42,432 nt of DNA from Burkholderiales bacterium (GTDB lineage Bacteria > Pseudomonadota > Gammaproteobacteria > Burkholderiales > UBA11063). Of the stretch, positions 13,877 to 40,910 are shown in pieces; the stretch's first letter is position 1; every line of letters starts with the position of its first letter. The stretch lies in the NCBI GenBank assembly GCA_019748155.1, contig JAIEPY010000025.1:1-42432 (forward strand), written 5' to 3'. The position numbers were made by a program, and so were the translations under genes. The notes under the pieces are model-generated. The model was not told where the DNA came from. It worked only from the letters and a program-made list of their open reading frames with translations, and did no database searches.

Positions 13877-14407
13877 TTAATTCGCTAAAATACATTCCTC
13901 TATCTGATTATTTTCTGCCACATAGCGTGCTAATGTAAATAACCAATCTGATAAACGATTTAAGTAGTGTAACGAGCTTGGATGAAATTTAAACTCTAAG
14001 CCAGCTGCAACTAATTTACGTTCTGCGCGCCGACAGATCGTCCGCGCAATATGGATAGTGGCGATAGTTTGACTACCTAGCGGATAAATAAAATTAACTA
14101 AAGGTGGCAGTGACAAGACCATCTCATCAATAGATGATTCAAGATTAACCACCTCTGCACTCAAATCAAGACTAGCGTATTTAACTGCACCAGCCAAATG
14201 AGCATTGAGATGAAATAAATTATGGATAATCTTTACAATAAACTCATTAGTTTTGGCATCATCTAATAAACTGTGCACTAAGCCTAGATGTGCGCTAAGT
14301 TCATCAATGTCTCCAATCAACTCGATGCGTAAATCATCTTTACTAGTGCGACTACCATCGAAAAGGCAAGTTTCGCCTTGATCACCAGTTTTAGTGTAAA
14401 TCTTCAT
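13877..14407 (-). CDS. Cob(I)alamin adenosyltransferase, PduO/MMAB type
   Basis: Transfers the adenosyl group of ATP to cob(I)alamin to make adenosylcobalamin. 176 aa. The N-terminal KIYTKTGDQGETCLFDGSR (residues 2-20) is the ATP-binding signature of PduO-type enzymes; a helical bundle follows with ELIGDIDELSAHLG and RAERKLVAAG, the conserved Arg/Glu segment. It overlaps the permease gene by 17 bp and is the last cistron of the ethanolamine cluster, so its likely job is to supply the EutBC cofactor. RBS AAGGA at slightly long spacing. It is distinct from CobA/BtuR and EutT types. Confidence 0.93.
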   Translation of the reverse strand: MKIYTKTGDQGETCLFDGSRTSKDDLRIELIGDIDELSAHLGLVHSLLDDAKTNEFIVKIIHNLFHLNAHLAGAVKYASLDLSAEVVNLESSIDEMVLSLPPLVNFIYPLGSQTIATIHIARTICRRAERKLVAAGLEFKFHPSSLHYLNRLSDWLFTLARYVAENNQIEECILAN

Positions 14408-15719
14408 GTATAGTCTTATCCTTATGCAAAAAATACATTATTGCTGCGAAAACACAAATTATAATCAGCGCAGCTAAAAAAATTAAACTAGTCATTACAT
14501 CCGCAAGTAACATTAAGCCACAAATAAGCACGGCTAATAATAGCGTAACAATAGGCAATAGTGGAAAAAATGGCGTTTTGAAGGAGTGCTCATGTGCATC
14601 TTTTTTAGCTAATTTAAGCTTAATAAAAGCAGCTAATGACAAGGCATAAACAAACACTGCGCCTAAACCTGAAATACTTACCAACACTGCAGTTTGATTA
14701 CTTAATGCACAAATAATCCCAATCGCACAGCACAGAATAATTGAATTTACCGGAGTTAACAACTTAGGTGCTATATAACTTAAACCGTGGGGTAATAATC
14801 TCGCTCGCGATAACGCAAACACCTGACGCGATGCACCAAAGATAATGCCGTGAAAGGATGCAATCAGTCCGAATATTCCCAGATAAATCATCATTAACGT
14901 CAGCCAACTATCGCTAGAACTAATTACAGCTAATACTTTGGGTAATGCATCATTCCCACTAACTAAAACCGAGCTGGGTAGTATACCAGTTGAACAAATA
15001 ATCACAGTCAGCGCAAACACTAACAAAGTAATAATAGCGGTTATTAAACCCCGTGGAATCGCTTTCTCTGGATTTTTTACTTCTTCAACACACATTGCCA
15101 CGCCCTCAATTCCCAAAAAAAACCAAATCGCAAAAGGTAATGCTGAGTAGATTTGACTAAAGACACTGCTTTCGAGCGCTGGACTAGACAAAATATTAGC
15201 GATATTAACATGTGGCAAAGTCGCGCCAAAGAAAATCACTAAAACCAAACTCGCAATCAACGTCACGATTAGCTCCAATGTCGCAGCGAAAGCAACTCCG
15301 GTACAATTCAAAATCCCGAAGATAATAAAAAATGCTACCGTGACATGTACCGCATTAAAAACCGGAAATACATAGTGAACAAAAGAACCAATCGCCAAAC
15401 CAATCGCCGGTGGAGCAAATAAAAATTCAATTAAGGTAACTGCCCCAGCAACAACACCTAATTTATGCCCAAACGCCGCTGAGACAAATGAAAATGGTCC
15501 ACCGCTATTTGGTACCATTGCGACTAATTCAGTATAGCAAAAAATAAAGCTCAAATAAAACAATCCCACCGCAGCGACAACTAGCAGCATAATTACTGGA
15601 GAAGCCGTTATCAAACCATAGTTCCAGCCAAAATAATCACCGCTGATTACCAGTCCAACTCCCATTGCCCAAATATGCAAGGCCGTCAATGTCTTTTTTA
15701 AATGTGTTTTATGAGACAT
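14391..15719 (-). CDS. Ethanolamine permease, APC superfamily (Eat family)
   Basis: 442-aa inner-membrane transporter with about 12 hydrophobic segments. The start (KKTLTALHIWAMGVGLVISGDYFGWNYGL) and NSGGPFSFVSAAFG in TM3 are characteristic of ethanolamine/amino-acid APC carriers of the Eat type. I place the start at ATG 15719 because AGGTGGAG precedes it; a GTG four codons earlier would lie inside that site. The start overlaps the eutC stop by 11 bp and the end overlaps the adenosyltransferase by 17 bp, so translation is coupled. The genomic setting makes ethanolamine the likely substrate. Confidence 0.9.
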   Translation of the reverse strand: MSHKTHLKKTLTALHIWAMGVGLVISGDYFGWNYGLITASPVIMLLVVAAVGLFYLSFIFCYTELVAMVPNSGGPFSFVSAAFGHKLGVVAGAVTLIEFLFAPPAIGLAIGSFVHYVFPVFNAVHVTVAFFIIFGILNCTGVAFAATLELIVTLIASLVLVIFFGATLPHVNIANILSSPALESSVFSQIYSALPFAIWFFLGIEGVAMCVEEVKNPEKAIPRGLITAIITLLVFALTVIICSTGILPSSVLVSGNDALPKVLAVISSSDSWLTLMMIYLGIFGLIASFHGIIFGASRQVFALSRARLLPHGLSYIAPKLLTPVNSIILCCAIGIICALSNQTAVLVSISGLGAVFVYALSLAAFIKLKLAKKDAHEHSFKTPFFPLLPIVTLLLAVLICGLMLLADVMTSLIFLAALIIICVFAAIMYFLHKDKTIHEDLH

Positions 15720-16539
15720 AATTAGCTCCACCTAGAATCTGTTGTAATGCCGCGGGTGAAAAATCATCTTTTAGTTGGACACCAGAATATCCCAATTCGA
15801 AAGCGCGATGAAGCAGATAAGTTAGTTTCTCAGCAGCCTGAATATAACTAAGACCATTGCAATGAATATTAGAAATACAATTACGTTGTTCATCGGTACT
15901 ATTTATTTTAGAGTTATAGGTAAAATAGATACTCATGCTATCATTGGAACTAAGTCCCGGACGCTCACCAATTAAATTAAGCACTACTTTTGCTTTAAAA
16001 ATATCATTAACTTTATCCGCAAAAGCTACCCTCGTCTGTTTAGAGATTATGATTGGTGCAACTGACCAACCCATCTTAGCAAATAGCGGCAATAATTGAT
16101 TAAGCAGTGCCACAGCATGATTTTCAATTGCTAGCGATGACAAACCCGATGAAATCACAACTAATATATCCTGTGCAATGTATTCTGGGTGCGCTGTACA
16201 TAATTGCATTAGTTGCTCGTGAGATTCTGAATTAATTGAACGCCCCAAATCCGGACGAGTTAAAAACTGATCCAATGAGGTGACTAATGAATTTGCCAGA
16301 TAAATTTCGCGATCGGTAATTTGCTGGATATTATCCGCTAGTTTCGTTAAATCAAGCTCATTATAAACGGCATCTTTAGCTGCAGCAAAATCCAGTTGAA
16401 AATCCAGCCAATTTTTGGTACGGGTATGGCCACCACTATGACCGATGGCAATCCGTGCATTGGTAAACTTAGTCAAATCAGGTGCAACACGGTCATTTTG
16501 CTGGGCAATAAGCTGTTCTTTAACTGATAGGTTTTTCAT
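15709..16539 (-). CDS. eutC: Ethanolamine ammonia-lyase small subunit
   Basis: Light chain of the adenosylcobalamin-dependent lyase that converts ethanolamine to acetaldehyde and ammonia. 276 aa; family members are about 260-300. Recognised by TNARIAIGHSGGHTRTKNWLDFQLDFAAAKDAV (about 26-59; cut here for description: AIGHSGGHTRT), the LTRPDLGR segment and LIGERPGLSSNDSMSIY, all family hallmarks that help bind B12. It follows eutB by 11 bp with RBS GAGGT, and its stop overlaps the permease start. Encoded next to its obligatory partner, so assignment is secure. Confidence 0.97.
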   Translation of the reverse strand: MKNLSVKEQLIAQQNDRVAPDLTKFTNARIAIGHSGGHTRTKNWLDFQLDFAAAKDAVYNELDLTKLADNIQQITDREIYLANSLVTSLDQFLTRPDLGRSINSESHEQLMQLCTAHPEYIAQDILVVISSGLSSLAIENHAVALLNQLLPLFAKMGWSVAPIIISKQTRVAFADKVNDIFKAKVVLNLIGERPGLSSNDSMSIYFTYNSKINSTDEQRNCISNIHCNGLSYIQAAEKLTYLLHRAFELGYSGVQLKDDFSPAALQQILGGANYVS

Positions 16540-16550
16540 CTTATACCTCG

Positions 16551-17912
16551 TTACGCTTGGAGTAAGTAATTTAACTGCGCAAATTGAGTTTTATTAATCA
16601 ATTTACCATCCCAAATCTGCTGCTGTTTAAGCCAGCTTTCAAATTCAGGCGCTGGGCGAAGTCCCAATAAATTACGCAAATAGATCGCATCGTGAAATGA
16701 TGTACTTTGATAATTGAGCATAATATCATCCGAACCAGGAATTCCCATTATGAAGCTACATCCGGCAACGCCTAATAAAGTCAGTAGATTATCCATATCA
16801 TTTTGATCTGCATCAGCATGATTGGTATAGCAGACATCACACCCCATCGGTAAACCAAGTAATTTGCCACAAAATTGATCTTCCAGCCCGGCACGAATAA
16901 TCTGTTTACCATTATACAGATATTCAGGTCCGATAAAGCCGACTACCGTATTTACCAGTAAAGGGTTATACTCGCGCGCAACTGCATAGGCACGAGTTTC
17001 AATCGTCTGTTGATCTACCCCATGATTAGCATTAGCCGATAATGCACTGCCCTGCCCAGTTTCAAAATACATATAGTTTTGCCCGCGATTGAGTTCTTTG
17101 CCTAGCTCAAATGCCTCCTGCAAAACCTCAAGGGAAACGCCAAAGCTAGTATTTACGCCCTCTGTACCGCCAATCGACTGAAAAAATAAATCAACAGGTA
17201 GCTTCCGTTTGGCAAGGAGAATACTATTACTAATGTGAGTTAGCACACAGCTTTGAATCGGTGCACCAATCGATTGACGAATCCCATCAAGCATGCTCAC
17301 TAGTGAACCAAGTTGATTAATATCATCGGTTGCCGGGTTTACCCCGATCACCGCATCACCGCTGGCATACAATAAGCCCTCAATAATACTTGCCGCTATC
17401 CCCGCTTTATCATCCGTCGCATGATTAGGTTGTAGTCTGGTTGATAAACGACCTTTGAGACCAATTGTAGTTCTAAATTTAGTTATCACTTCACATTTCG
17501 CCGCTACCGCGATTAAATCCTGATTGCGCATAATTTTGCTCACTGCAGCAACCATTTCCGGAGTTAGTGCATAACGTAAATCTGCCAAAACCTGAGGAGT
17601 ACATTCATAAGAGAGTAGGTACTCGCGCAATTCACCAATACACATACTGCTAATTTGCGCAAATTTAGCCAGATTATGCTGCTTAATAATCAGTCGTGAA
17701 ATTTCATCAATTTCAGGATCAATTACAAATTGTTGGGTAAATACACTTAATGGTAAATCAGCTAAAATCATTTGTGCCGCCACCATCTGAGTTAGAGATT
17801 CAGCCGCCACACCAGCCAGAATATCACCGGAGCGTAATGGAGTAGCTTTTGCCATAAGGTCTTTCAAATCGTTAAATCTATATACTTGATTTTTTAGTGT
17901 AATTTTGTACAT
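16551..17912 (-). CDS. eutB: Ethanolamine ammonia-lyase large subunit
   Basis: Catalytic TIM-barrel chain of the EutBC lyase. 453 aa, the same length as E. coli EutB. Conserved segments include LRSGDILAGVAA near residue 27, the GLKGRLSTRLQPNHATDDKA stretch, VIGVNPATDD, YFETGQGSALSANANHG and PMGCDVCYTNHADADQND. RBS GGGAGAAG precedes the ATG. It lies 23 bp after the DUF779 gene and 11 bp before eutC, inside a six-gene unit. No reactivase gene (eutA) is present in the window. Confidence 0.98.
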   Translation of the reverse strand: MYKITLKNQVYRFNDLKDLMAKATPLRSGDILAGVAAESLTQMVAAQMILADLPLSVFTQQFVIDPEIDEISRLIIKQHNLAKFAQISSMCIGELREYLLSYECTPQVLADLRYALTPEMVAAVSKIMRNQDLIAVAAKCEVITKFRTTIGLKGRLSTRLQPNHATDDKAGIAASIIEGLLYASGDAVIGVNPATDDINQLGSLVSMLDGIRQSIGAPIQSCVLTHISNSILLAKRKLPVDLFFQSIGGTEGVNTSFGVSLEVLQEAFELGKELNRGQNYMYFETGQGSALSANANHGVDQQTIETRAYAVAREYNPLLVNTVVGFIGPEYLYNGKQIIRAGLEDQFCGKLLGLPMGCDVCYTNHADADQNDMDNLLTLLGVAGCSFIMGIPGSDDIMLNYQSTSFHDAIYLRNLLGLRPAPEFESWLKQQQIWDGKLINKTQFAQLNYLLQA

Positions 17913-17935
17913 TACTTCTCCCGACTATCAAAAAA

Positions 17936-18298
17936 TTAGCCCTTCAAAAGATCTGATAACTCCTCATCACTAAATAAGCGTGAGCGAGTTATAAAACGTA
18001 GCCCGCTCGGTCGCTCCAAAGAAAACATTCCGCCATTACCGGGTATTGCATCTATAATTAACTGGGTATGTTTCCAATATTCATATTGTGATTTACTCAT
18101 ATAAAACGGCACGCCACCAATCTCACCGAGCAGGATATCTGCATCACCTAACATAAACTCACCAGCGGCAAAACACATCGGAGCACTACCGTCACAACAC
18201 CCTCCGGATTGGTGGAAAATTAATTCGCCATGTTCCGCACGTAAATTACTGATTAGTTTCAGTGCTGCATCACTTGCAATTACTCGTTGTATTGCCAT
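17936..18298 (-). CDS. DUF779 protein associated with aldehyde dehydrogenase
   Basis: 120-aa soluble protein of the DUF779 family, usually encoded beside NAD-dependent aldehyde dehydrogenases of the AldB/ExaC type. Hallmarks seen here are LIFHQSGGCCDGSAPMC (26-42), with three Cys, and the YMSKSQYEYWKHTQLIID segment. The Cys cluster could bind a metal, but its biochemical role is not established. It sits between the dehydrogenase and eutB on the same strand, which fits a role tied to acetaldehyde oxidation. The RBS is weak. Confidence 0.85.
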   Translation of the reverse strand: MAIQRVIASDAALKLISNLRAEHGELIFHQSGGCCDGSAPMCFAAGEFMLGDADILLGEIGGVPFYMSKSQYEYWKHTQLIIDAIPGNGGMFSLERPSGLRFITRSRLFSDEELSDLLKG

Positions 18299-18339
18299 AA
18301 TTGTTTAACTCATTTATAAATTTATTAAGCTAATAAAGC

Positions 18340-18374
18340 ACAAAGCTGACTATATATTAATAAGCCAGCTTTGT
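18340..18374 (-). terminator. Hairpin between aldehyde dehydrogenase and DUF779 genes (possible attenuator)
   Basis: ACAAAGCTG (18340-18348) and CAGCTTTGT (18366-18374) form a perfect 9-bp stem with a 17-nt AT-rich loop. Following bases on the minus strand (GCTTTATTAG) lack a clean T-run, so it may only partly terminate or may stabilise the upstream mRNA, giving different levels of dehydrogenase and eut genes. Confidence 0.4.
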
Positions 18375-18397
18375 TTCACATTAATTAATTGACTCAG

Positions 18398-19918
18398 TTA
18401 AAAAAAGCCTAGCGCATTAGGACTATAACTTACCAATAGATTTTTAGTTTGTTGGTAGTGATCCAGCATCATTTTATGTGTCTCACGTCCAATTCCAGAT
18501 TGTTTATAGCCACCAAAAGCAGCATGTGCCGGATAAGCATGATAACAATTAGTCCAGACACGACCAGCCTGAATAGCCTTACCAGCTCTAAATGCACGAC
18601 TACCGTCACGTGTCCAAACCCCAGCACCCAAACCATAAAGTGTATCGTTGGCAATAGCTAATGCCTCTTCTTCATCTTTAAACGTAGTTACTGATAATAC
18701 TGGCCCAAAAATTTCTTCTTGGAAAATACGCATCTTATTATGCCCTTTGAATACCGTCGGACGAACGTAATAACCACCAGCCAAATCTCCCTCCAGCAAG
18801 TTGCGTTCACCACCGATTAAACATTGAGCACCTTCTTGTTTACCCAAATCAATATAGGATAAAATTTTCTCCAATTGTTCCTGAGATGCCTGCGCACCAA
18901 TCATGGTTGAACTATCTAGCGGATTACCTTGCTTAATTGCAGCAACCCGTTTTAAAGCGCGCTCCATGAAGCGCTCGTAGATTGATTCCTGAATCAAAGC
19001 ACGCGATGGACAAGTACAAACTTCACCCTGATTTAAGGCAAACATGGCAAAACCTTCGAGTGCTTTGTCAAAATAAGCATCATCCGCACTCATCACATCT
19101 TCAAAGAAGATATTAGGTGATTTGCCACCAAGTTCCAAAGTAACTGGAATTATATTTTGTGAGGCATATTGCATAATTAGACGTCCGGTGGTAGTTTCAC
19201 CTGTAAACGCAATTTTTGCAATTCGGCTGCTAGAAGCTAACGGTTTACCAGCTTCTAGTCCAAAACCATTGACTATATTTAAAACTCCGGCTGGCAATAA
19301 ATCACCGATAATTTCAAGTAAAACTAAAATAGATGCAGGTGTCTGTTCAGCTGGTTTTAGCACCACGCAGTTTCCGGCAGCTAAAGCCGGAGCTAGTTTC
19401 CATACCGCCATTAAAATCGGAAAATTCCACGGAATAATTTGCCCAACCACGCCTAATGGCTCGTGGAAATGATAGGCCATTGTTTCATGATCAATCTCAG
19501 CGATACTACCCTCTTGAGCACGGATACAACCCGCAAAATAACGAAAATGATCAATAGCCAAAGGAATATCTGCCGCCATAGCTTCGCGTAGTGGCTTACC
19601 ATTATCAATAGTTTCGGCAACGGCAATTAATTTAAGGTTACTCTCCATCCGATCGGCAATTTTATTTAAGATATTGGCACGTTCGGTAGCTGACGTTTTA
19701 CCCCAGGCAACTTTCGCACCATGTGCCGCGTCTAGTGCCGCATCAATATCCTTAGAGTTTGAACGTGGAATTTGGCAAAATATTTGTCCAGTCAACGGCG
19801 TCACATTATCGAAATATTGCCCGTCAATTGGTTCTATCCATTTACCGCCAATATAATTAGCATACTTAGTTTTGTATGGGTTTTGTAGACCTAAACTTGA
19901 TAGATTAGCAAATGTCAT
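18398..19918 (-). CDS. NAD-dependent (acet)aldehyde dehydrogenase, AldB/ExaC type
   Basis: Non-acylating aldehyde dehydrogenase of 506 aa, the usual AldB/ExaC length. Motifs: [19 protein letters not shown] (about 160-178), the NAD-site FTGETTTGR near 240, general base Glu in LELGGKSPN near 265, and catalytic Cys301 in GEVCTCPSR. Expected reaction: acetaldehyde to acetate with NAD+. First gene of the ethanolamine unit and next to the DUF779 gene, so it removes the acetaldehyde made by EutBC. Strong RBS (CAGGAG) before ATG. It lacks the CoA-binding features of EutE, so the product should be acetate, not acetyl-CoA. Confidence 0.93.
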
Positions 19919-22471: not shown

Positions 22472-23359
22472 ATGGAAAAAAAATTTATTCCGATTGACCT
22501 GCATTGTCACAGCACTCACTCAGATGGTTCGTTGAGTGTTGCTGGGGTAATGAGCCTTGCGAAAAACAATGGTGTTATCTATCAAGCACTTACCGATCAC
22601 GATACAGTAGAGGGAATTTCCGAAGCCCGCGAAATTTGTCAGCAACTAGCGATAAACTTTATTTCCGGTGTTGAAATTTCGGTAACCTGGCATCACAATA
22701 CGCTGATTCATATCATTGGCTTAGGAGTTGATGAAAACAATTCGCAATTAGTTGAGGAATTAGCTAAATTACGCGCATCAAGAATTGAGCGCGCTAAACG
22801 TATTGCGCACAATCTAACTAAAGTAGGTATCCACGGTGCATTTGAAGGTGCAATGGCGTTGTGTGAACATCCTGAAGCAATCAGTCGTACCCATTTTGGT
22901 AAATGGTTAGTCGATGCGGGACATGCAAAAGCTGGTAAAGCGTTTGAAAAATTTCTTGCACCCGGCAAAGTCGGTTATACCCAGCAATCTTGGGCAAGTC
23001 TGGAAAATGCAGTTAAGTGGATTGTCGAGAGTGGCGGTATTGCTGTCATTGCTCACCCTAGTCGCTATAAATTTACACGAACTAAGCTATTAAAATTAAT
23101 TGATGAATTTAAAAGCTATGGCGGAACTGGAATTGAGGTAATTAGTAGCTCACATTCATTACAAGATGAAGAAAATATTGCCTCTATCTGCCGAGTTAGT
23201 GGACTCAAGGCAAGTGTCGGCAGTGACTTTCACCAAGAAGAAAGTTATCGAACAATCCGCCCCGGCAAAAATAAAGCACTACCCTATGGATTAGATACAG
23301 TATTTCCGCATATTGGTATCGCTCCAGAAATTTATAACACTCACGGTGAACAATGTTAA
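22472..23359 (+). CDS. PHP-domain phosphatase, RNase AM / YciV (TrpH) family
   Basis: 295-aa metal-dependent phosphoesterase, close to E. coli YciV (293 aa), which removes 3'-phosphate from 3',5'-nucleoside bisphosphates and acts as a 5'-3' exoribonuclease on 5S rRNA and other RNAs. Metal ligands visible: DLHCHSTHSDGS (9-20), LTDHDTVEG, SGVEIS, IAHPSRY and the final GSDFHQE. ATG at 22472 with a weak purine-rich leader (AAAGAAAA). The stop overlaps the first permease start (ATGTTAA), so it heads a four-gene unit with three permeases, an unusual partnership. Confidence 0.88.
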   Translation: MEKKFIPIDLHCHSTHSDGSLSVAGVMSLAKNNGVIYQALTDHDTVEGISEAREICQQLAINFISGVEISVTWHHNTLIHIIGLGVDENNSQLVEELAKLRASRIERAKRIAHNLTKVGIHGAFEGAMALCEHPEAISRTHFGKWLVDAGHAKAGKAFEKFLAPGKVGYTQQSWASLENAVKWIVESGGIAVIAHPSRYKFTRTKLLKLIDEFKSYGGTGIEVISSSHSLQDEENIASICRVSGLKASVGSDFHQEESYRTIRPGKNKALPYGLDTVFPHIGIAPEIYNTHGEQC

Positions 23360-24684
23360 AAAATAAACTTAAACACGGTCTTACTTCGCGACATATCTTA
23401 ATGATTGCTCTTGGTAGCGCAATCGGCACAGGATTCTTCTTTGGCAGCGGTGGCTCAATAAAGCTTGCCGGACCAGCGATTCTCTTATCTTATAGTATCG
23501 GTGGAATAATGATGTATATCATTGTCCGTGCCCTTGGCGAAATGGCAGTTGCCGAACCAAGCTCTGGCTCATTTAGTTACTACGCTTATAAATACATTGG
23601 TAATTATGCCGGATTTGTTTCAGGCTGGAATTATTGGTTTAATTATATTATAGTCTGTATGCTAGAACTCACAGCAACCGGAATCTTCATGGACTATTGG
23701 TTTCCACAGTCTGTTCATTGGATTATCACCCTGGTGGTTATTGTACTCTTTACGGGAATCAATCTACTCAATGTTCGCATGTTTGGCGAATTCGAGTTTT
23801 GGTTTGCTGGAATCAAGGTTGTGACGGTAATCTGTCTGGTATTGTTTGGCATATATATTCTCGGCTTTGGCAACAACCATCAGCAAAGCGTATCCAATGT
23901 AAGTAATTTATGGCAAAATGGCGGATTCTTTGCCAATGGGCTGCAAGGATTTCTCTTTTCATTCGTAGTGGTAGTATTTTCCTTTGGTGGCACAGAATTA
24001 GTTGGAATCACCGCTGCCGAAGCAGAAAATCCACGCAAAACCATTCCAATGGCGATTAATGGAATTATCGTCCGAATCTTGTTATTCTATATTGCGACGC
24101 TTGCAATAATCATGTGTCTTTATCCGTGGAATAAGATTGATTCACAGATTAGTCCATTTGTCGATGTCTTTCAACAAATCGGAATTGCTAAAGCTGCCAG
24201 TTTAATGAATTTGGTTGCAATAACTGCCGCACTCTCTTCTTTAAACAGTGGGATCTATGGTACTGCGCGGATGGCTTACAATCTGGGATTACAAGGCAAT
24301 GCACCGCAAGCCATGACCAAAGTTTCAGCTAAAGGAAGTCCAGTTAACGCTATTATATTCTCCATTATCTGCATTGGATTAACAGTCTTTTTAAACTATC
24401 TCTACCCTAAACAAATTTTTAATGTCTTACTATCAATTGCAACTATTGCTGCGATAATTAACTGGATTACCATTTTGGTGACTCATATCAATTTTAAACG
24501 CAAATTTACTGGCATCAGCCACTATCCAATTTTCCTCTACCCTTTAAGTTCGATAATAGCCATAATATTTCTGCTTATGGTCGCAGGGGTTATGTATTTT
24601 ATGCCTGATTTCAAATTCGCAATTATAATTGCACCAATTTGGCTGTGTTTGCTAAGCATTGGCTACTTCATCAAAACTAAATAA
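23353..24684 (+). CDS. Amino-acid permease, APC superfamily AAT family (paralog 1 of 3)
   Basis: 443-aa inner-membrane transporter with 12 predicted segments. Family marks: RHILMIALGSAIGTGFFFG (TM1, substrate-carboxylate site), IMMYIIVRALGEMAV, PSSGSFSYYA, FEFWFAGIKV (TM5), and FSFGGTELVGITAAEAENP with PFVDVF after TM7. These belong to the proton-coupled ProY/AroP/LysP/GabP group; the amino acid cannot be assigned. It is the most divergent of the three paralogs (GSGGSIKLAGPA where the others have GAAKSIQxTGPS). ATG overlaps the PHP gene stop by 7 bp. Confidence 0.9.
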   Translation: MLKNKLKHGLTSRHILMIALGSAIGTGFFFGSGGSIKLAGPAILLSYSIGGIMMYIIVRALGEMAVAEPSSGSFSYYAYKYIGNYAGFVSGWNYWFNYIIVCMLELTATGIFMDYWFPQSVHWIITLVVIVLFTGINLLNVRMFGEFEFWFAGIKVVTVICLVLFGIYILGFGNNHQQSVSNVSNLWQNGGFFANGLQGFLFSFVVVVFSFGGTELVGITAAEAENPRKTIPMAINGIIVRILLFYIATLAIIMCLYPWNKIDSQISPFVDVFQQIGIAKAASLMNLVAITAALSSLNSGIYGTARMAYNLGLQGNAPQAMTKVSAKGSPVNAIIFSIICIGLTVFLNYLYPKQIFNVLLSIATIAAIINWITILVTHINFKRKFTGISHYPIFLYPLSSIIAIIFLLMVAGVMYFMPDFKFAIIIAPIWLCLLSIGYFIKTK

Positions 24685-24700
24685 TTAGTAGGTAAATAAT

Positions 24701-26062
24701 ATGACAGAACAAAAGAAATTACAACACCCTCTCAAAAACCGTCACATTCAAATGATCGCCTTAGGTGGCGTTATCGGTACTGGCTTATTTTTCGGCGCAG
24801 CCAAATCCATCCAATCCACCGGACCATCAATCATCCTGTCCTATATTTTAGGCGGACTGGTTATTTACATAATTATGCGTGCACTTGGCGAAATGACAGT
24901 CCATCACCCCTCATCAGGTTCATTTAGTGATTATGCTAATCGTTATATCAATAACTACACCGGATTTATTGCCGGCTGGACGGCATGGTTTGAATATACC
25001 GTCGTATGCATGGTCGAACTGACTGCCGTTACTTTCTTTTTAGATTATTGGATTCCGGGATTGCCACATTGGCTGGTTTGTCTTGGTCTGTTATTAATGT
25101 TTACGATGGTGCAGTTAATCAGCGTCCGTTTATTTGGTGAATTTGAATTTTGGTTTGCAGGGATAAAAATTGCGGCAATTATATTGATGCTCTTATTTAG
25201 CGCATATTTAGTTACATTCAATCCGCAAGTTCATGCTGGGACTATTAATAACTTACATAGCTACGCTAGTCTGGATGTATTCTTTGCTAGTGGCGCTAAA
25301 GGGTTCCTTTTCTCACTTGCAATCGTCATCTTTTCGTTCGGTGGTACTGAATTTGTGAGTATCGCAGCAGGTGAAGCTGAAAATCCGCGTAAATCAATCC
25401 CTCAGGCAATCAGCGGTGTAATTATTCGTATTATTCTCTTCTATATCTTAACAATTCTGGCGATTATTTGCTTATATCCCTTTAATAAATTAAATGCTAA
25501 TGTCAGTCCATTTGTCGATGTATTCAAAGAAATTGGGATTAATCAAGCAGCCACGGTAATGAATGCAGTAGCAATTACTGCTGCGCTCTCGGCGTTTAAT
25601 AGCTGCATGTACGCAGCCTCACGGATATTATTTAGTTTAGCCAAACAAGGCTCTGCACCAGCTAAATTAGCAATACTTAATAATATTAATATCCCGAGCA
25701 AAGCACTGCTTTTTACTAGTTTCTGCATCTTAATCAGCGTAATTGTAAATTATATTTTTCCCGAAAAAGCAATTATGTATTTGCTAACCATTGCCACTTG
25801 TGCGATCTTGACTTGCTGGTTTTTAATTTTATTAACTCAGATTTACTTCCGTAAAAAAATTGCACTTGATAAAATCAGTTATCGTCTTATTTTATACCCA
25901 GCTAGCAATATTTTTGCGATGTGTTTTCTAATTATGGTGATGTTTATTATGTTGTGGATTGATGATATGCGTGCTAGCGTAATTGTTACACCAATCTGGA
26001 TTTTTGCTTTATCAATCTTCTATGCCTTTAATAAAAAAATTAAAAGTAAAACCAATGGCTAA
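24701..26062 (+). CDS. Amino-acid permease, AAT family (paralog 2 of 3)
   Basis: 453 aa, 12 hydrophobic segments. NRHIQMIALGGVIGTGLFF in TM1, IMRALGEMTVHHPSSGSF, GEFEFWFAGIKIA, and FSFGGTEFVSIAAGEAENP give the AAT-family pattern. Much closer to paralog 3 than to paralog 1, also at DNA level in several stretches, so the pair likely arose by a later duplication. AGTAGGT precedes the ATG, 16 bp after paralog 1. The stop overlaps the start of paralog 3 (ATGGCTAA). Substrate unknown. Confidence 0.9.
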   Translation: MTEQKKLQHPLKNRHIQMIALGGVIGTGLFFGAAKSIQSTGPSIILSYILGGLVIYIIMRALGEMTVHHPSSGSFSDYANRYINNYTGFIAGWTAWFEYTVVCMVELTAVTFFLDYWIPGLPHWLVCLGLLLMFTMVQLISVRLFGEFEFWFAGIKIAAIILMLLFSAYLVTFNPQVHAGTINNLHSYASLDVFFASGAKGFLFSLAIVIFSFGGTEFVSIAAGEAENPRKSIPQAISGVIIRIILFYILTILAIICLYPFNKLNANVSPFVDVFKEIGINQAATVMNAVAITAALSAFNSCMYAASRILFSLAKQGSAPAKLAILNNINIPSKALLFTSFCILISVIVNYIFPEKAIMYLLTIATCAILTCWFLILLTQIYFRKKIALDKISYRLILYPASNIFAMCFLIMVMFIMLWIDDMRASVIVTPIWIFALSIFYAFNKKIKSKTNG

Positions 26063-27392
26063 ACTTAAAAACCGTCATATTCAAATGATTGCACTGGGTG
26101 GCGCAATCGGAACTGGCTTGTTCTTTGGTGCTGCGAAATCAATTCAACTCACCGGCCCCTCAATCGTCCTTGCTTATATTATTGGCGGTTTAGTGATGTA
26201 TATCATCATGCGTGCACTTGGCGAAATGGTAGTGCATGAACCAAATTCCGGAGCATTCAGCCACTATGCACATAAGTATGTCGGTGCTTATCTTGGCTTC
26301 TTATCTGGCTGGTATGCTTGGTTGGAATACACTATTGTGTGTATGCTAGAAATAACCGCGGTTACCTATTTCTTAGATCTATGGTTTCCAGGAATTCCAC
26401 ACTGGATTACGATTGCTGCAATTTTAGTCATATTCTTTGCAATTAATATAATCAACGTTAATTTATTTGGCGAGTTTGAATTTTGGTTTGCCGGAATCAA
26501 AGTCGTGACAATTATTGCTATGATCATCTTTGCACTTTATCTAATGACTTTTGACAATAGCGTTCACTCGGGAATAGCGACTAATTTCCAGACTAATATT
26601 GCCCATAATTTCTTTGCCAAAGGCAGTAGTGGCTTCTTATTCTCCATGGTACTGGTTATATTCTCATTTGGTGGTACTCAGTTTGTTGGGATTGCGGCTG
26701 CAGACGCTGAAAACCCGCAAAAAAGCGTGCCACGAGCAATTAATGGCGTGATTTTTCGAATTGTGATTTTCTATATTGGAACATTGTCGGTAATAATCTG
26801 CCTCTACCCATGGAATAAACTATCGGCAGATGTCAGCCCATTTGTCGATGTATTTCGAAAAATAGGTATTCCTGCCGCTGCCGGAGTCATGAATCTAATT
26901 GCGATTACCGCAGCCCTATCGGCATTTAATAGCTGCTTATATGCCGCGGCACGAATGTTGGCTAATTTAGCACGCCAAAACAGCGCACCGCGTGGATTAG
27001 CTAAAATAAATAATAAGCAAATTCCACATAATGCGGTAATCTTTACTTGTATCATAATTGCTCTTACGGTCTTAATTAATTATTGGTTTCCAGATAAGGC
27101 CATTATTTATTTAATTGCAATTGCAACTACATCAATTATCGTGACTTGGACAACGATCTTAATCTGTCATATCTATTTCCGCAAGCAAAACCCTGATTTA
27201 AAATATCGCTTACCCTTATATCCAGCAAGTAATTACCTTGCAATTGGTATACTCTTGCTAGTTGTCATTATTATGACGCAAATGGCAGATATGCGAATGG
27301 CAGTTTATTTAATGCCATTATGGATTGGATTATTGAGTATTGCCTATCGCATGAAAAAAACGATGCAAATTCGGACAATTACTAAGAATTAA
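26055..27392 (+). CDS. Amino-acid permease, AAT family (paralog 3 of 3)
   Basis: 445 aa from the ATG at 26055 (MAKLKNRHIQM...). An upstream in-frame start at 25983 would add 24 residues that lie in the coding region of paralog 2 and have no counterpart in it. The 8-bp ATGGCTAA overlap favours coupled translation. Motifs: GGAIGTGLFFGAAKSIQ, VMYIIMRALGEMVVHEPNSGAF, GEFEFWFAGIKVV, FGGTQFVGIAAADAENP, SPFVDVFRKIG. The Gln/Ala changes (TQ, ADAENP) relative to paralog 2 may alter specificity. No terminator is seen before the rpsT promoter 25 bp downstream. Confidence 0.88.
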   Translation: MAKLKNRHIQMIALGGAIGTGLFFGAAKSIQLTGPSIVLAYIIGGLVMYIIMRALGEMVVHEPNSGAFSHYAHKYVGAYLGFLSGWYAWLEYTIVCMLEITAVTYFLDLWFPGIPHWITIAAILVIFFAINIINVNLFGEFEFWFAGIKVVTIIAMIIFALYLMTFDNSVHSGIATNFQTNIAHNFFAKGSSGFLFSMVLVIFSFGGTQFVGIAAADAENPQKSVPRAINGVIFRIVIFYIGTLSVIICLYPWNKLSADVSPFVDVFRKIGIPAAAGVMNLIAITAALSAFNSCLYAAARMLANLARQNSAPRGLAKINNKQIPHNAVIFTCIIIALTVLINYWFPDKAIIYLIAIATTSIIVTWTTILICHIYFRKQNPDLKYRLPLYPASNYLAIGILLLVVIIMTQMADMRMAVYLMPLWIGLLSIAYRMKKTMQIRTITKN

Positions 27393-38473: not shown

Positions 38474-40213
38474 CTATCTTGATCTAGCTATATAATTTTT
38501 CTCAACTATAATCTTTTCGCGTAATAATTTACTGACATCTGTCAATAATTCATGGCTGCATAGCAGATACATATCCTCTGGTTGTGCTTGAGCCAAAATA
38601 TACTCAGTAGCCTCTAGCTCATTAGGGATAACTTTTAGCTGCACTTGCGGATAACCTTGTCTGAGTAATTCAAGCCTAAATAATTCTGGCATCTCACCCA
38701 ATACACTGCCACGAAGCGACTCTTGAAACTCTTTAATCACAAGCAAATCAACTTTATGCTCAAGAATAATTTTGACCACTTCAGGAATTGTCTCACGCCT
38801 ATCCGCAGTATTACCATACATCAACCCCAAACGCCCATTTAGGCCATGTAATTTACGAAACTCTTGTGCTAAATCAAGAATATTACGCACTCCAGCCAGA
38901 TTATGTGCAATATCTACCACTAAATGCCCAGCTACTTTAGAGTGGTAATAATTCCAGCGCCCAAAATTAGATCTGGCATCCGCACCAAATTTAGCCAGTC
39001 CAAACATAATTTGTGCCGGAGTTAAGCCCAGTGCAAAAGTAAGTGCTGTAGCATGAAGCACATTTTCATAATTATATTGAGCCAAACCATGGACAGTAAT
39101 CGGAATCTGTGTAATATTATTTAAACGATGCACTTCATTGCAAGTTTGAATCACAATTTGCTGATTATCTAAATAAACCACGAAATTATTCATGGTTATA
39201 AACGGTTGAATTTCTTCTGCGTTTAATTTAGTAGATAAATATGCTTTGCGTGAGTTGTTCAAAGGAAACGCGCGAATATGCTCATCATCCAGATTAATAA
39301 TCGCAATACCGTCCGTTTTTAAACCATTGTAAACAATTGCTTTAGCCGCCGCTAAATCTGCTAAATTTTCAATTCCATTTTGTCCGATGTGATCATGAAA
39401 AATATTGGTGACTGTCGCAGCTGTTGCATAATTAGGTAACAAACCGCGTTTGATAATCCCGCCACGAGCCACCTCTAAAATTGCAAGCTCTACCTTAGGA
39501 TGCATAAGGACAAACTGATGTCCGCTTGGTCCGGATAAGTCACCCTCAGCCACTAATTTATTATTCACCATCACCCAGTCAGTTGAACAATAGCCTGATA
39601 CCAATTTAGCTTTACGACAAATAAACTCAGTCAGCCGTGTTGTAGTAGTTTTACCATTAGTCCCTGTAATCAGTACGCTTGGGATATCGGCAATTTTCCC
39701 CCATGGGATATCTGCTAACTTGGTAATATTATTTAACTTACTTCTAAATTGATGGATTCCACTACCTAAGATTAACAAGTCTTTATGGACAAAAAAATTC
39801 ACTTGCTTTTGCCGTGCTGTAGTGTATACTTTGCGTAGTAATAACTGCTGATTTTCGCGAATCATGGTTTTAAAACGTCGTTTAGAACGCTCGAATTTAA
39901 TTGGAATATCATCGTCAATTAAATCCACGATGTCATACCACACCCAATCCAAAATCTCACAAGCTACCATTAATAGGTCGTAAGGATAACGTATCGCAAC
40001 ATTAAACCCATTGGAAAAAGTAATCATTTTTACTGCGTAATCTTTGATTGAAAGCACTGCTAGCAAACGACTTAGCTCATTTACATAACGCTCAGATACT
40101 TCTTCAATATTTCCATGCAATACAACATCAATTACGGCTCCTGCATCACTAAAAAATCTATTTTGACCAAGCAAACGAGAAGAAAAATATTTAGCATCAT
40201 ATAAACGCTTCAA
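38474..40213 (-). CDS. Cyanophycin-synthetase-like Mur ligase lacking the ATP-grasp domain
   Basis: 579 aa from a TTG at 40213 (MKRLYDAKYFSSRLLG...). This start is chosen because GGGG lies 8 nt upstream, an extended -10 is about 35 nt upstream, and related proteins begin with an 'R-x-L-x-GxN' stretch here; a longer frame to 40369 would run into the IS607 relic. Residues 1-150 resemble the CphA N-terminal domain (FSDAGAVIDVVL, LILGSGIHQFRS). The roughly 230-residue ATP-grasp domain is absent: the chain goes straight to the Mur-ligase module with P-loop GTNGKTTTT (184-192), EVARGGIIKRGL, TNIFHDHIG and a C-terminal domain (DIAHNLAGVRN, YGNTADRR). The likely reaction is ATP-dependent peptide-type bond formation; substrate unknown. 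Confidence 0.8.
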   Translation of the reverse strand: MKRLYDAKYFSSRLLGQNRFFSDAGAVIDVVLHGNIEEVSERYVNELSRLLAVLSIKDYAVKMITFSNGFNVAIRYPYDLLMVACEILDWVWYDIVDLIDDDIPIKFERSKRRFKTMIRENQQLLLRKVYTTARQKQVNFFVHKDLLILGSGIHQFRSKLNNITKLADIPWGKIADIPSVLITGTNGKTTTTRLTEFICRKAKLVSGYCSTDWVMVNNKLVAEGDLSGPSGHQFVLMHPKVELAILEVARGGIIKRGLLPNYATAATVTNIFHDHIGQNGIENLADLAAAKAIVYNGLKTDGIAIINLDDEHIRAFPLNNSRKAYLSTKLNAEEIQPFITMNNFVVYLDNQQIVIQTCNEVHRLNNITQIPITVHGLAQYNYENVLHATALTFALGLTPAQIMFGLAKFGADARSNFGRWNYYHSKVAGHLVVDIAHNLAGVRNILDLAQEFRKLHGLNGRLGLMYGNTADRRETIPEVVKIILEHKVDLLVIKEFQESLRGSVLGEMPELFRLELLRQGYPQVQLKVIPNELEATEYILAQAQPEDMYLLCSHELLTDVSKLLREKIIVEKNYIARSR

Positions 40214-40268: not shown

Positions 40269-40910
40269 CTAAGTGTGCTCTGCAGCATTATCCAGCAAAT
40301 TTTCGACCTGATCAATAATCTGTAATATTTGCTCTTTATGCTGATTAAGTTCAGTAACTTTACCACCAAACATATTCACGATAAGCTTCAACTCATTTAT
40401 TAGTTCCCGCTTATCAGGAGTCCATTCACTATGGCTAACTAATTTAATTTCCGTACCATGCCGATTAAAAAAATTAGCAAACCACTCATTGCCAAATCTA
40501 AGCAAACGATCTTTATGAGCCATAAACAAAACTCTAACTTCACCTATTTCAATTTGCTCCAACAGTGGGTTAAATTGTTCACGTTGATAATTTAAGCTGC
40601 TATTATGATAAATACACCAATCTGTAATTTCCAAACTACAAGTTTTGGCATAGTTATTAATCAATTGTTGTTGTAACTGAATATCATCAACTTGCAACGC
40701 ACATTAAGCACGACAATGAGCAACAATGGATGAGTTCACAAGTGCATGCACACCTTTATATTCAAGATATTGCTGCTTCGTATAATAGCGTCGATTGCTA
40801 CCCGAACGTTGGGCAACCAATCTCCCCTGACTGTCCCAGCGTTGCAAAATTAAAACCGATTTACCGATTAAAGTCACAAACTCATGTGGCTTATAGATAG
40901 TTTTTGACAT
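40269..40910 (-). pseudogene. tnpA: IS607-family serine recombinase TnpA with stop at the catalytic serine codon
   Basis: The frame has a MerR-like helix-turn-helix (YKPHEFVTLIGKSVLILQRW...GSNRRYYTKQQY, residues 6-48) joined to a serine-recombinase core (LLEQIEIGEVRVLFMAHKDRLLRFGNEWF... GTEIKLV), the exact IS607 TnpA layout. Full length would be 213 aa, normal for the family, from ATG 40910 with RBS GAGG. The two halves are in one frame, broken only by TAA at 40704-40706 (codon 69). Aligning HCRA-stop-CALQVDDIQLQ to the family's Y-x-R-V-S-S-x-x-Q-x-D-D-L puts the stop at the nucleophilic Ser. A TCA to TAA change explains it. No tnpB is adjacent. Confidence 0.85.
40269..40910 (-). mobile_element. 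Relic of an IS607-like element (tnpA only)
   Basis: Only the recombinase half of the element remains. No TnpB reading frame or IS607-type right end is present: the Mur-ligase gene starts 56 bp after the tnpA stop. IS607 elements lack terminal inverted repeats, so exact ends cannot be set. Confidence 0.6.

Follow-up and report, generated by a model that had tools for sequence, protein, structure and literature searches.

A free-standing CphA-type Mur ligase without an ATP-grasp domain in a Burkholderiales genome

The window, the whole 42,432-nucleotide stretch of DNA analysed here, carries on its minus strand a gene for a protein of 579 aa that combines the N domain of cyanophycin synthetase (CphA1) with a Mur-ligase (M) domain; proteins of this architecture are called NM proteins below. 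Its 580 codons, stop included, run uninterrupted between a TTG at 40213 and the stop at 38474, and the TTG start is supported because the orthologue at L009 starts with an ATG at the aligned position and a GGGGTGG box lies 5 nt 5' of the TTG. The features of the gene are as follows.

38474..40213, minus strand: NM ligase gene, CphA-type N domain and Mur-ligase domain with no ATP-grasp domain, 579 aa, TTG start
39719..40213, minus strand: N domain, aa 1-165, folded as in cyanophycin synthetase, with a roughly neutral to basic net charge (profile, fold, motif, charge)
39689..39739, minus strand: short linker, aa 159-175, where CphA1 has an ATP-grasp (G) domain of ~280 aa (alignment, profile-profile)
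38981..39688, minus strand: M core, aa 176-411, Mur_ligase_M (Pfam, alignment, model)
39644..39667, minus strand: P-loop TGTNGKTT, aa 183-190, with K188 equivalent to CphA1 K499 (alignment; role in TeCphA1 from PMC9427784)
39341..39343, minus strand: K291, invariant in the NM alignment and aligned with the MurE lysine (alignment)
38534..38980, minus strand: M lid, aa 412-560, Mur_ligase_C, with R419 and H437 equivalent to CphA1 R731 and H748 (Pfam, alignment)
38705..38734, minus strand: lid motif KEFQESLRGS, aa 494-503, against DNPR in MurE and KEDDDKRGR in CphA1; Arg kept, acidic pair lost (alignment)

Directly upstream, a MerR-resolvase recombinase resembling IS607-type TnpA occupies 40278-40910 (minus strand) as two ORFs with an internal stop. 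An intact 213-aa copy sits at the same place in L043 (7007-7648), and no TnpB-like ORF was noticed beside the window recombinase.

The domain assignment was supported by profiles and by structure. Pfam found Mur_ligase_M (residues 182-391) and Mur_ligase_C (418-553) in the window protein and nothing else, with no match to PF18921 in the N-terminal 165 residues. The cyanophycin synthetase profile TIGR02068 aligned over positions 474-858 of 862 with 295 bits, about a third of its cut-off of 850 bits, and the best PDB sequence matches, beginning at residue 170, were to CphA1 M domains (E 1e-44). Profile-profile comparison of 31 NM N regions with 21 CphA1 N domains aligned 162 columns (P 1.3e-5), ending exactly at the N/G boundary; the controls, five column-shuffled profiles and the G domain, all had probabilities of 0.5% or less. 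Modelled alone, the N region reached a pLDDT of 91, and its ten best structural matches in the PDB were all CphA1 or CphA2 chains (Z 8.3-11.8), followed in the next row by the best unrelated match at Z 7.9. The first 165 residues of the window protein are a cyanophycin-synthetase N domain, and the preliminary description of a CphA-like N-terminus joined to a Mur-ligase module is shown to be right by profile-profile comparison, fold and Pfam. The structure prediction it had called for agrees: the full-length model (pLDDT 76) could be aligned through 518-520 of its residues, between positions 7 and 556, with CphA1 structures (Z about 24-25), covering the CphA1 chains from the first residue to about 857, that is N and M, and skipping G. 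The overall rmsd to the CphA1 chains was large (about 16 Å), so the placement of N against M is not fixed by this model, and several loops of the M core and lid have pLDDT <50, so that the substrate pockets cannot be read from it.

That the ATP-grasp domain is missing, also claimed earlier, was confirmed by Pfam, by TIGR02068 coverage, by the profile-profile comparison and by a scan of the window, which held no G-domain remnant (best E 2.7). The accompanying statement that the segment LGSGIHQFRS runs directly into the P-loop was right in that no G domain lies between the two, but about 25 residues separate them. Such a protein could arise by artefact or decay from a cphA1 that lost its ATP-grasp segment through frameshift, misassembly or recent deletion, and the frameshifted orthologue of genome G016 shows that loss does occur. 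However, orthologues with the same N/M junction are present in ten other genomes of the genus, from separate assemblies, and eight of them are intact, full length and 50-86% identical to the window protein over the whole length, the remaining two being one cut by a contig end and the frameshifted one (L040:5464-7103), whose close relative G019 has an intact copy. The window gene is under purifying selection (dN/dS 0.063 against its nearest orthologue, L009), NM proteins form a clade separate from CphA1, and a full CphA1 is encoded elsewhere in the same genome. On the orthologues and the selection we rejected an artefact, a frameshift or a decayed cphA1, an explanation with a vanishingly small probability; the hidden frameshifted ATP-grasp segment considered in the preliminary description was not borne out, given the shared junction and the lack of a remnant in the window. 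The intact orthologues share the same architecture, in keeping with the earlier view that the protein is full length for its type.

The search for distribution and gene neighbours that had been proposed was carried out across Pseudomonadota with an NM-protein profile (A1); the genomes searched numbered 369 for the class, 398 for the phylum, 23 for the genus and 30 for one family. Outside the genus, a long NM protein was found in 32 genomes. Every one of these 32 has it immediately after a CphA1-type domain and in the same orientation, and the spacing in the five loci measured was -3 to 40 bp. All eight NM-bearing genomes of the class sample were among the 18 with a CphA1 match, and the family richest in NM proteins, probably Francisellaceae, had them in 24 of 30 genomes. 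The pairing of NM with cphA1 is conserved in several families of Pseudomonadota, and for this reason the type belongs to cyanophycin biology, only the second copy being detached from it. Among the Pseudomonadota searched, this free-standing second copy was found only in the present genus, where it occurs in 10 of the 15 genomes with cphA1 and in one of the eight in which cphA1 was not found (Fisher p 0.03, kinship ignored); that lone genome is 68% complete.

Phylogenetic analysis of the M domain (maximum likelihood, LG+C20 PMSF) placed all NM proteins, including the window protein, in one clade (support 100/99), within which the free copies form a clade of their own (100/100) on a long stem branch of 1.08 changes per site. 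The deeper joins involve long branches and give limited confidence on the direction of change, either a loss of G on the way from CphA1 to NM or a gain of G by CphA1. We take NM to have probably originated when a copy of cphA1 lost G, the simpler reading because CphA2 and CphA1 share N and G.

The source genome also encodes a complete CphA1 (C45:159-2966, L035:159-2966), which scores 1125 bits against the 850-bit TIGR02068 cut-off and has a best PDB match at E 4e-292. Behind it, at a distance of 111 bp, lies an NM paralogue of 572 aa (G000:C45:3077-4795, L035:3077-4792), and the order continues with a cyanophycinase (TIGR02069, 249 bits) and iaaA, encoding an Asparaginase_2/IaaA-type protein; the same order of cphA1, NM, cyanophycinase and IaaA-type gene is found in L039, L041, L042 and L102 of the genus. 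The window copy is free-standing, not directly behind cphA1 as its operon paralogue is, and the neighbours of the free copies vary by species (rpoD; gyrA/trpS; a phosphoglycolate-phosphatase-like gene; mraZ/nth; a recombinase). The preliminary statement that the gene is not beside cphA or cphB is therefore true of the window locus, where the copy is indeed detached, but a paralogue of the same type sits between cphA1 and cyanophycinase elsewhere in the genome. The genome search it had recommended recovered the cyanophycinase, namely the one behind the operon paralogue. No ATP-grasp partner gene adjoins the window copy at its locus, and the search for a separate partner in the genome returned no dedicated one: its G-domain matches were CphA1 itself and, best after it, a GshAB-like protein (C89).

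Two further variations were seen at the operon loci. First, some genomes of the genus carry in the operon slot a Mur-N-Mur fusion, a double Mur ligase without any ATP-grasp domain, flanked by an NAD(P)HX-epimerase-like gene and cyanophycinase (L037:5196-8129 in G012, 977 aa; L046:4639-7563 in G010, 974 aa). Judged from its matches, G001 has such a fusion as well. The first Mur domain of the fusion groups with CphA1, as sister of L038, and the second with NM. Second, CphA1 proteins from NM-bearing genomes are 928-945 aa long and end in a C-terminal tail of about 35-47 residues with an acidic end (consensus RGVR.....ED), and those without an NM partner are 855-889 aa long and have no tail. The tail was present in 14 of 14 NM-paired and 0 of 11 unpaired CphA1 proteins, counting L032 as paired by kinship since its NM itself was not found; the tailed proteins group together, and kinship is ignored in the count.

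The window protein fits none of the characterised families with which it shares parts. With CphA1 (PDB 7lg5, 7lgq, 7wae) the window protein has in common the N-domain fold, the MurE-like M domain, the ATP and Mg residues and the lid Arg and His, but it has no G domain, no HxxEH motif and no acidic lid pair, and it carries the NM-specific residues W171, G231 and R256, which every NM row has and CphA1 seldom or never shows. CphA2 (PDB 8fxh, 8fxi), likewise a CphA1 relative with one synthetic site and an N domain of the same fold, shows the opposite loss, retaining G without the M P-loop and lid (PMC9427784), whereas the window protein has no G domain and keeps P-loop and lid. MurE (UDP-MurNAc-tripeptide synthetase) shares the Mur core and lid, the P-loop, the lysine and the arginine of a DNPR-like motif, but the N domain of the window protein is of CphA type and not the UDP-binding one, and DNPR and GKGHE are replaced; near the C-terminus the free copies read SHE, which does not align as GKGHE. 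A MurE-like role was ruled out, the score against TIGR01085 (68 bits) being far under the cut-off of 257, and the source genome has its own MurE. The operon NM proteins (e.g. L035:3077-4792, L094:7192-8874) share architecture, clade and NM-specific residues with the window protein; they differ in lying directly behind cphA1 and in having acidic N and M domains, the window copy being free-standing and neutral to basic. Because the window protein does not pass the tests that define CphA1 (which turn on the G domain), CphA2 and MurE, we place it as a variant of CphA-type Mur ligases, and the assignment to a characterised ligase family that the preliminary description had kept in view did not materialise. 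Its description of the type as functionally undescribed also holds for the open literature searched, in which no description of an N+M CphA type was found.

The catalytic M-domain residues are retained. Of those for which roles in ATP or Mg binding are reported in TeCphA1 (PMC9427784), all that were checked are present in the window protein (K188, T189, T211, E247, R419 and H437). Across 34 NM sequences the P-loop, the Mg ligands, the lysine and the lid residues are kept, with Ser in place of T189 and T211 in a few. By sequence, the window protein is catalytically complete and apparently active; K291 occupies the position of the lysine that becomes carbamylated in Mur ligases. The lid differs. 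At the position of DNPR in MurE, most CphA1 carry an acidic pair and then xRG(R), and the aspartate at SuCphA1 801 occurs in 23 of 26 CphA1 but 0 of 34 NM rows. The R-G after it persists in the NM proteins, and KEFQxSLRGS is the usual reading in the free copies. Because the acidic pair is absent, the donor of the window protein may not be arginine, where the tie between the pair and arginine recognition is drawn by likeness to MurE rather than from a CphA1-arginine structure.

The N domain has changed as well. The HxxEH motif of the CphA1 N-domain hydrolase (endo-cyanophycinase), described in PMC9262961, is present with its upstream Cys in the CphA1 of the source genome and absent from the N domain of every NM protein examined, which rules out a hydrolase role of the CphA1 type for NM. 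The N core is acidic in operon NM copies (charge -19 to -1), as it is in most CphA1, compared with -2 to +8 in free copies. In 6 of 6 genomes holding both, the free copy has the more positive charge, the difference from the operon copy being 7 to 15 in the N core and 7 to 13 in the M domain, although these charge and motif changes represent few independent events, the free copies being one clade. An acidic N core suits a cationic polymer, and the free copies have lost such a surface; the shift from acidic to neutral or basic suggests that the acceptor may have changed.

On balance, we lean towards the window protein being a stand-alone Mur-type carboxylate-amine ligase that makes one bond on an aspartyl acceptor without extending a backbone. 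ATP bound at the P-loop would phosphorylate a free carboxylate, most likely the aspartyl side chain of an acceptor that sits between N domain and M core. A donor amino acid would then attack the acyl phosphate through its amino group, making one (iso)peptide bond and releasing ADP and phosphate. Since there is no G domain, Asp would not be added to the backbone, and NM would act on chains produced elsewhere, decorating, capping or repairing them rather than polymerising. The operon copies would most likely act on cyanophycin beside CphA1; the window copy would be a duplicate that has diverged, probably with a donor other than arginine and an acceptor less cationic than cyanophycin. The preliminary description had singled out the protein as a candidate for peptide-bond formation, and a ligase is indeed plausible from the kept catalytic residues, but the type is one that belongs to cyanophycin biology.

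Three other activities were weighed against this single-bond ligase. NM might do the job of the CphA1 M domain, adding arginine to unmodified Asp of cyanophycin as a helper or repair enzyme: fold and catalytic residues are the same, the M domain of CphA1 takes a bare Asp at the C-terminus as its substrate (PMC9427784), and within the genus the free copy is almost confined to genomes with cphA1. We consider this unlikely, as the acidic lid pair is missing from every NM protein listed and NM-specific residues are fixed, the free copy has lost the acidic surface that an N domain binding a cationic polymer should have, and CphA1 itself is already in the genome. The strict pairing of the sister copies with cphA1 would also fit a non-catalytic or regulatory CphA1 subunit that binds the polymer or CphA1, and the acidic-ended tail of NM-paired CphA1 proteins (14/14 against 0/11) is a possible docking piece; conservation of P-loop, Mg ligands, lysine and lid residues across the 34 NM sequences and the location of the window copy away from cphA1 make such a subunit decidedly improbable. 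Lastly, the free copy may have left cyanophycin altogether and ligate an amino acid onto something else, for instance a peptide or a small metabolite of aspartyl or glutamyl type. The free clade's long stem (1.08 changes per site), the neutral to basic N domain and the lack of a constant neighbour across species favour this departure, but within the genus the copy is nearly confined to genomes with cphA1, and we regard it as a rather doubtful minority reading. Co-occurrence with cphA1 and the basic N domain point in opposite directions on cyanophycin as acceptor of the free copy.

Descriptions of cyanophycin synthesis assign it to a single enzyme, CphA1, or to CphA2 in the case of dipeptides. 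A ligase that is related to CphA1 and conserved but has no polymerising domain, and whose gene lies directly behind cphA1 in several families and is duplicated here, suggests an overlooked extra modification step. Tentatively, NM could be an unrecognised third synthetic enzyme of cyanophycin metabolism, one that caps the chain or attaches another type of amino acid to the side chains of Asp; the product would be a heteropolymer different from textbook cyanophycin, with the free copy turned to another acceptor as a new amide-bond-forming activity. NM also isolates the side-chain ligation module together with its N domain, offering a simple system for the choice of donor and acceptor in CphA-type M domains, and would serve the making of altered cyanophycins.

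Elsewhere in the window, genes for EutB and EutC (ethanolamine ammonia-lyase), an amino-acid permease, a cobalamin adenosyltransferase and an aldehyde-dehydrogenase-like protein adjoin at 13877-19918 (minus strand), with no microcompartment shell genes noticed among the ORFs neighbouring this cluster. Three similar amino-acid-permease-like genes stand in tandem at 23353-27392 (plus strand).
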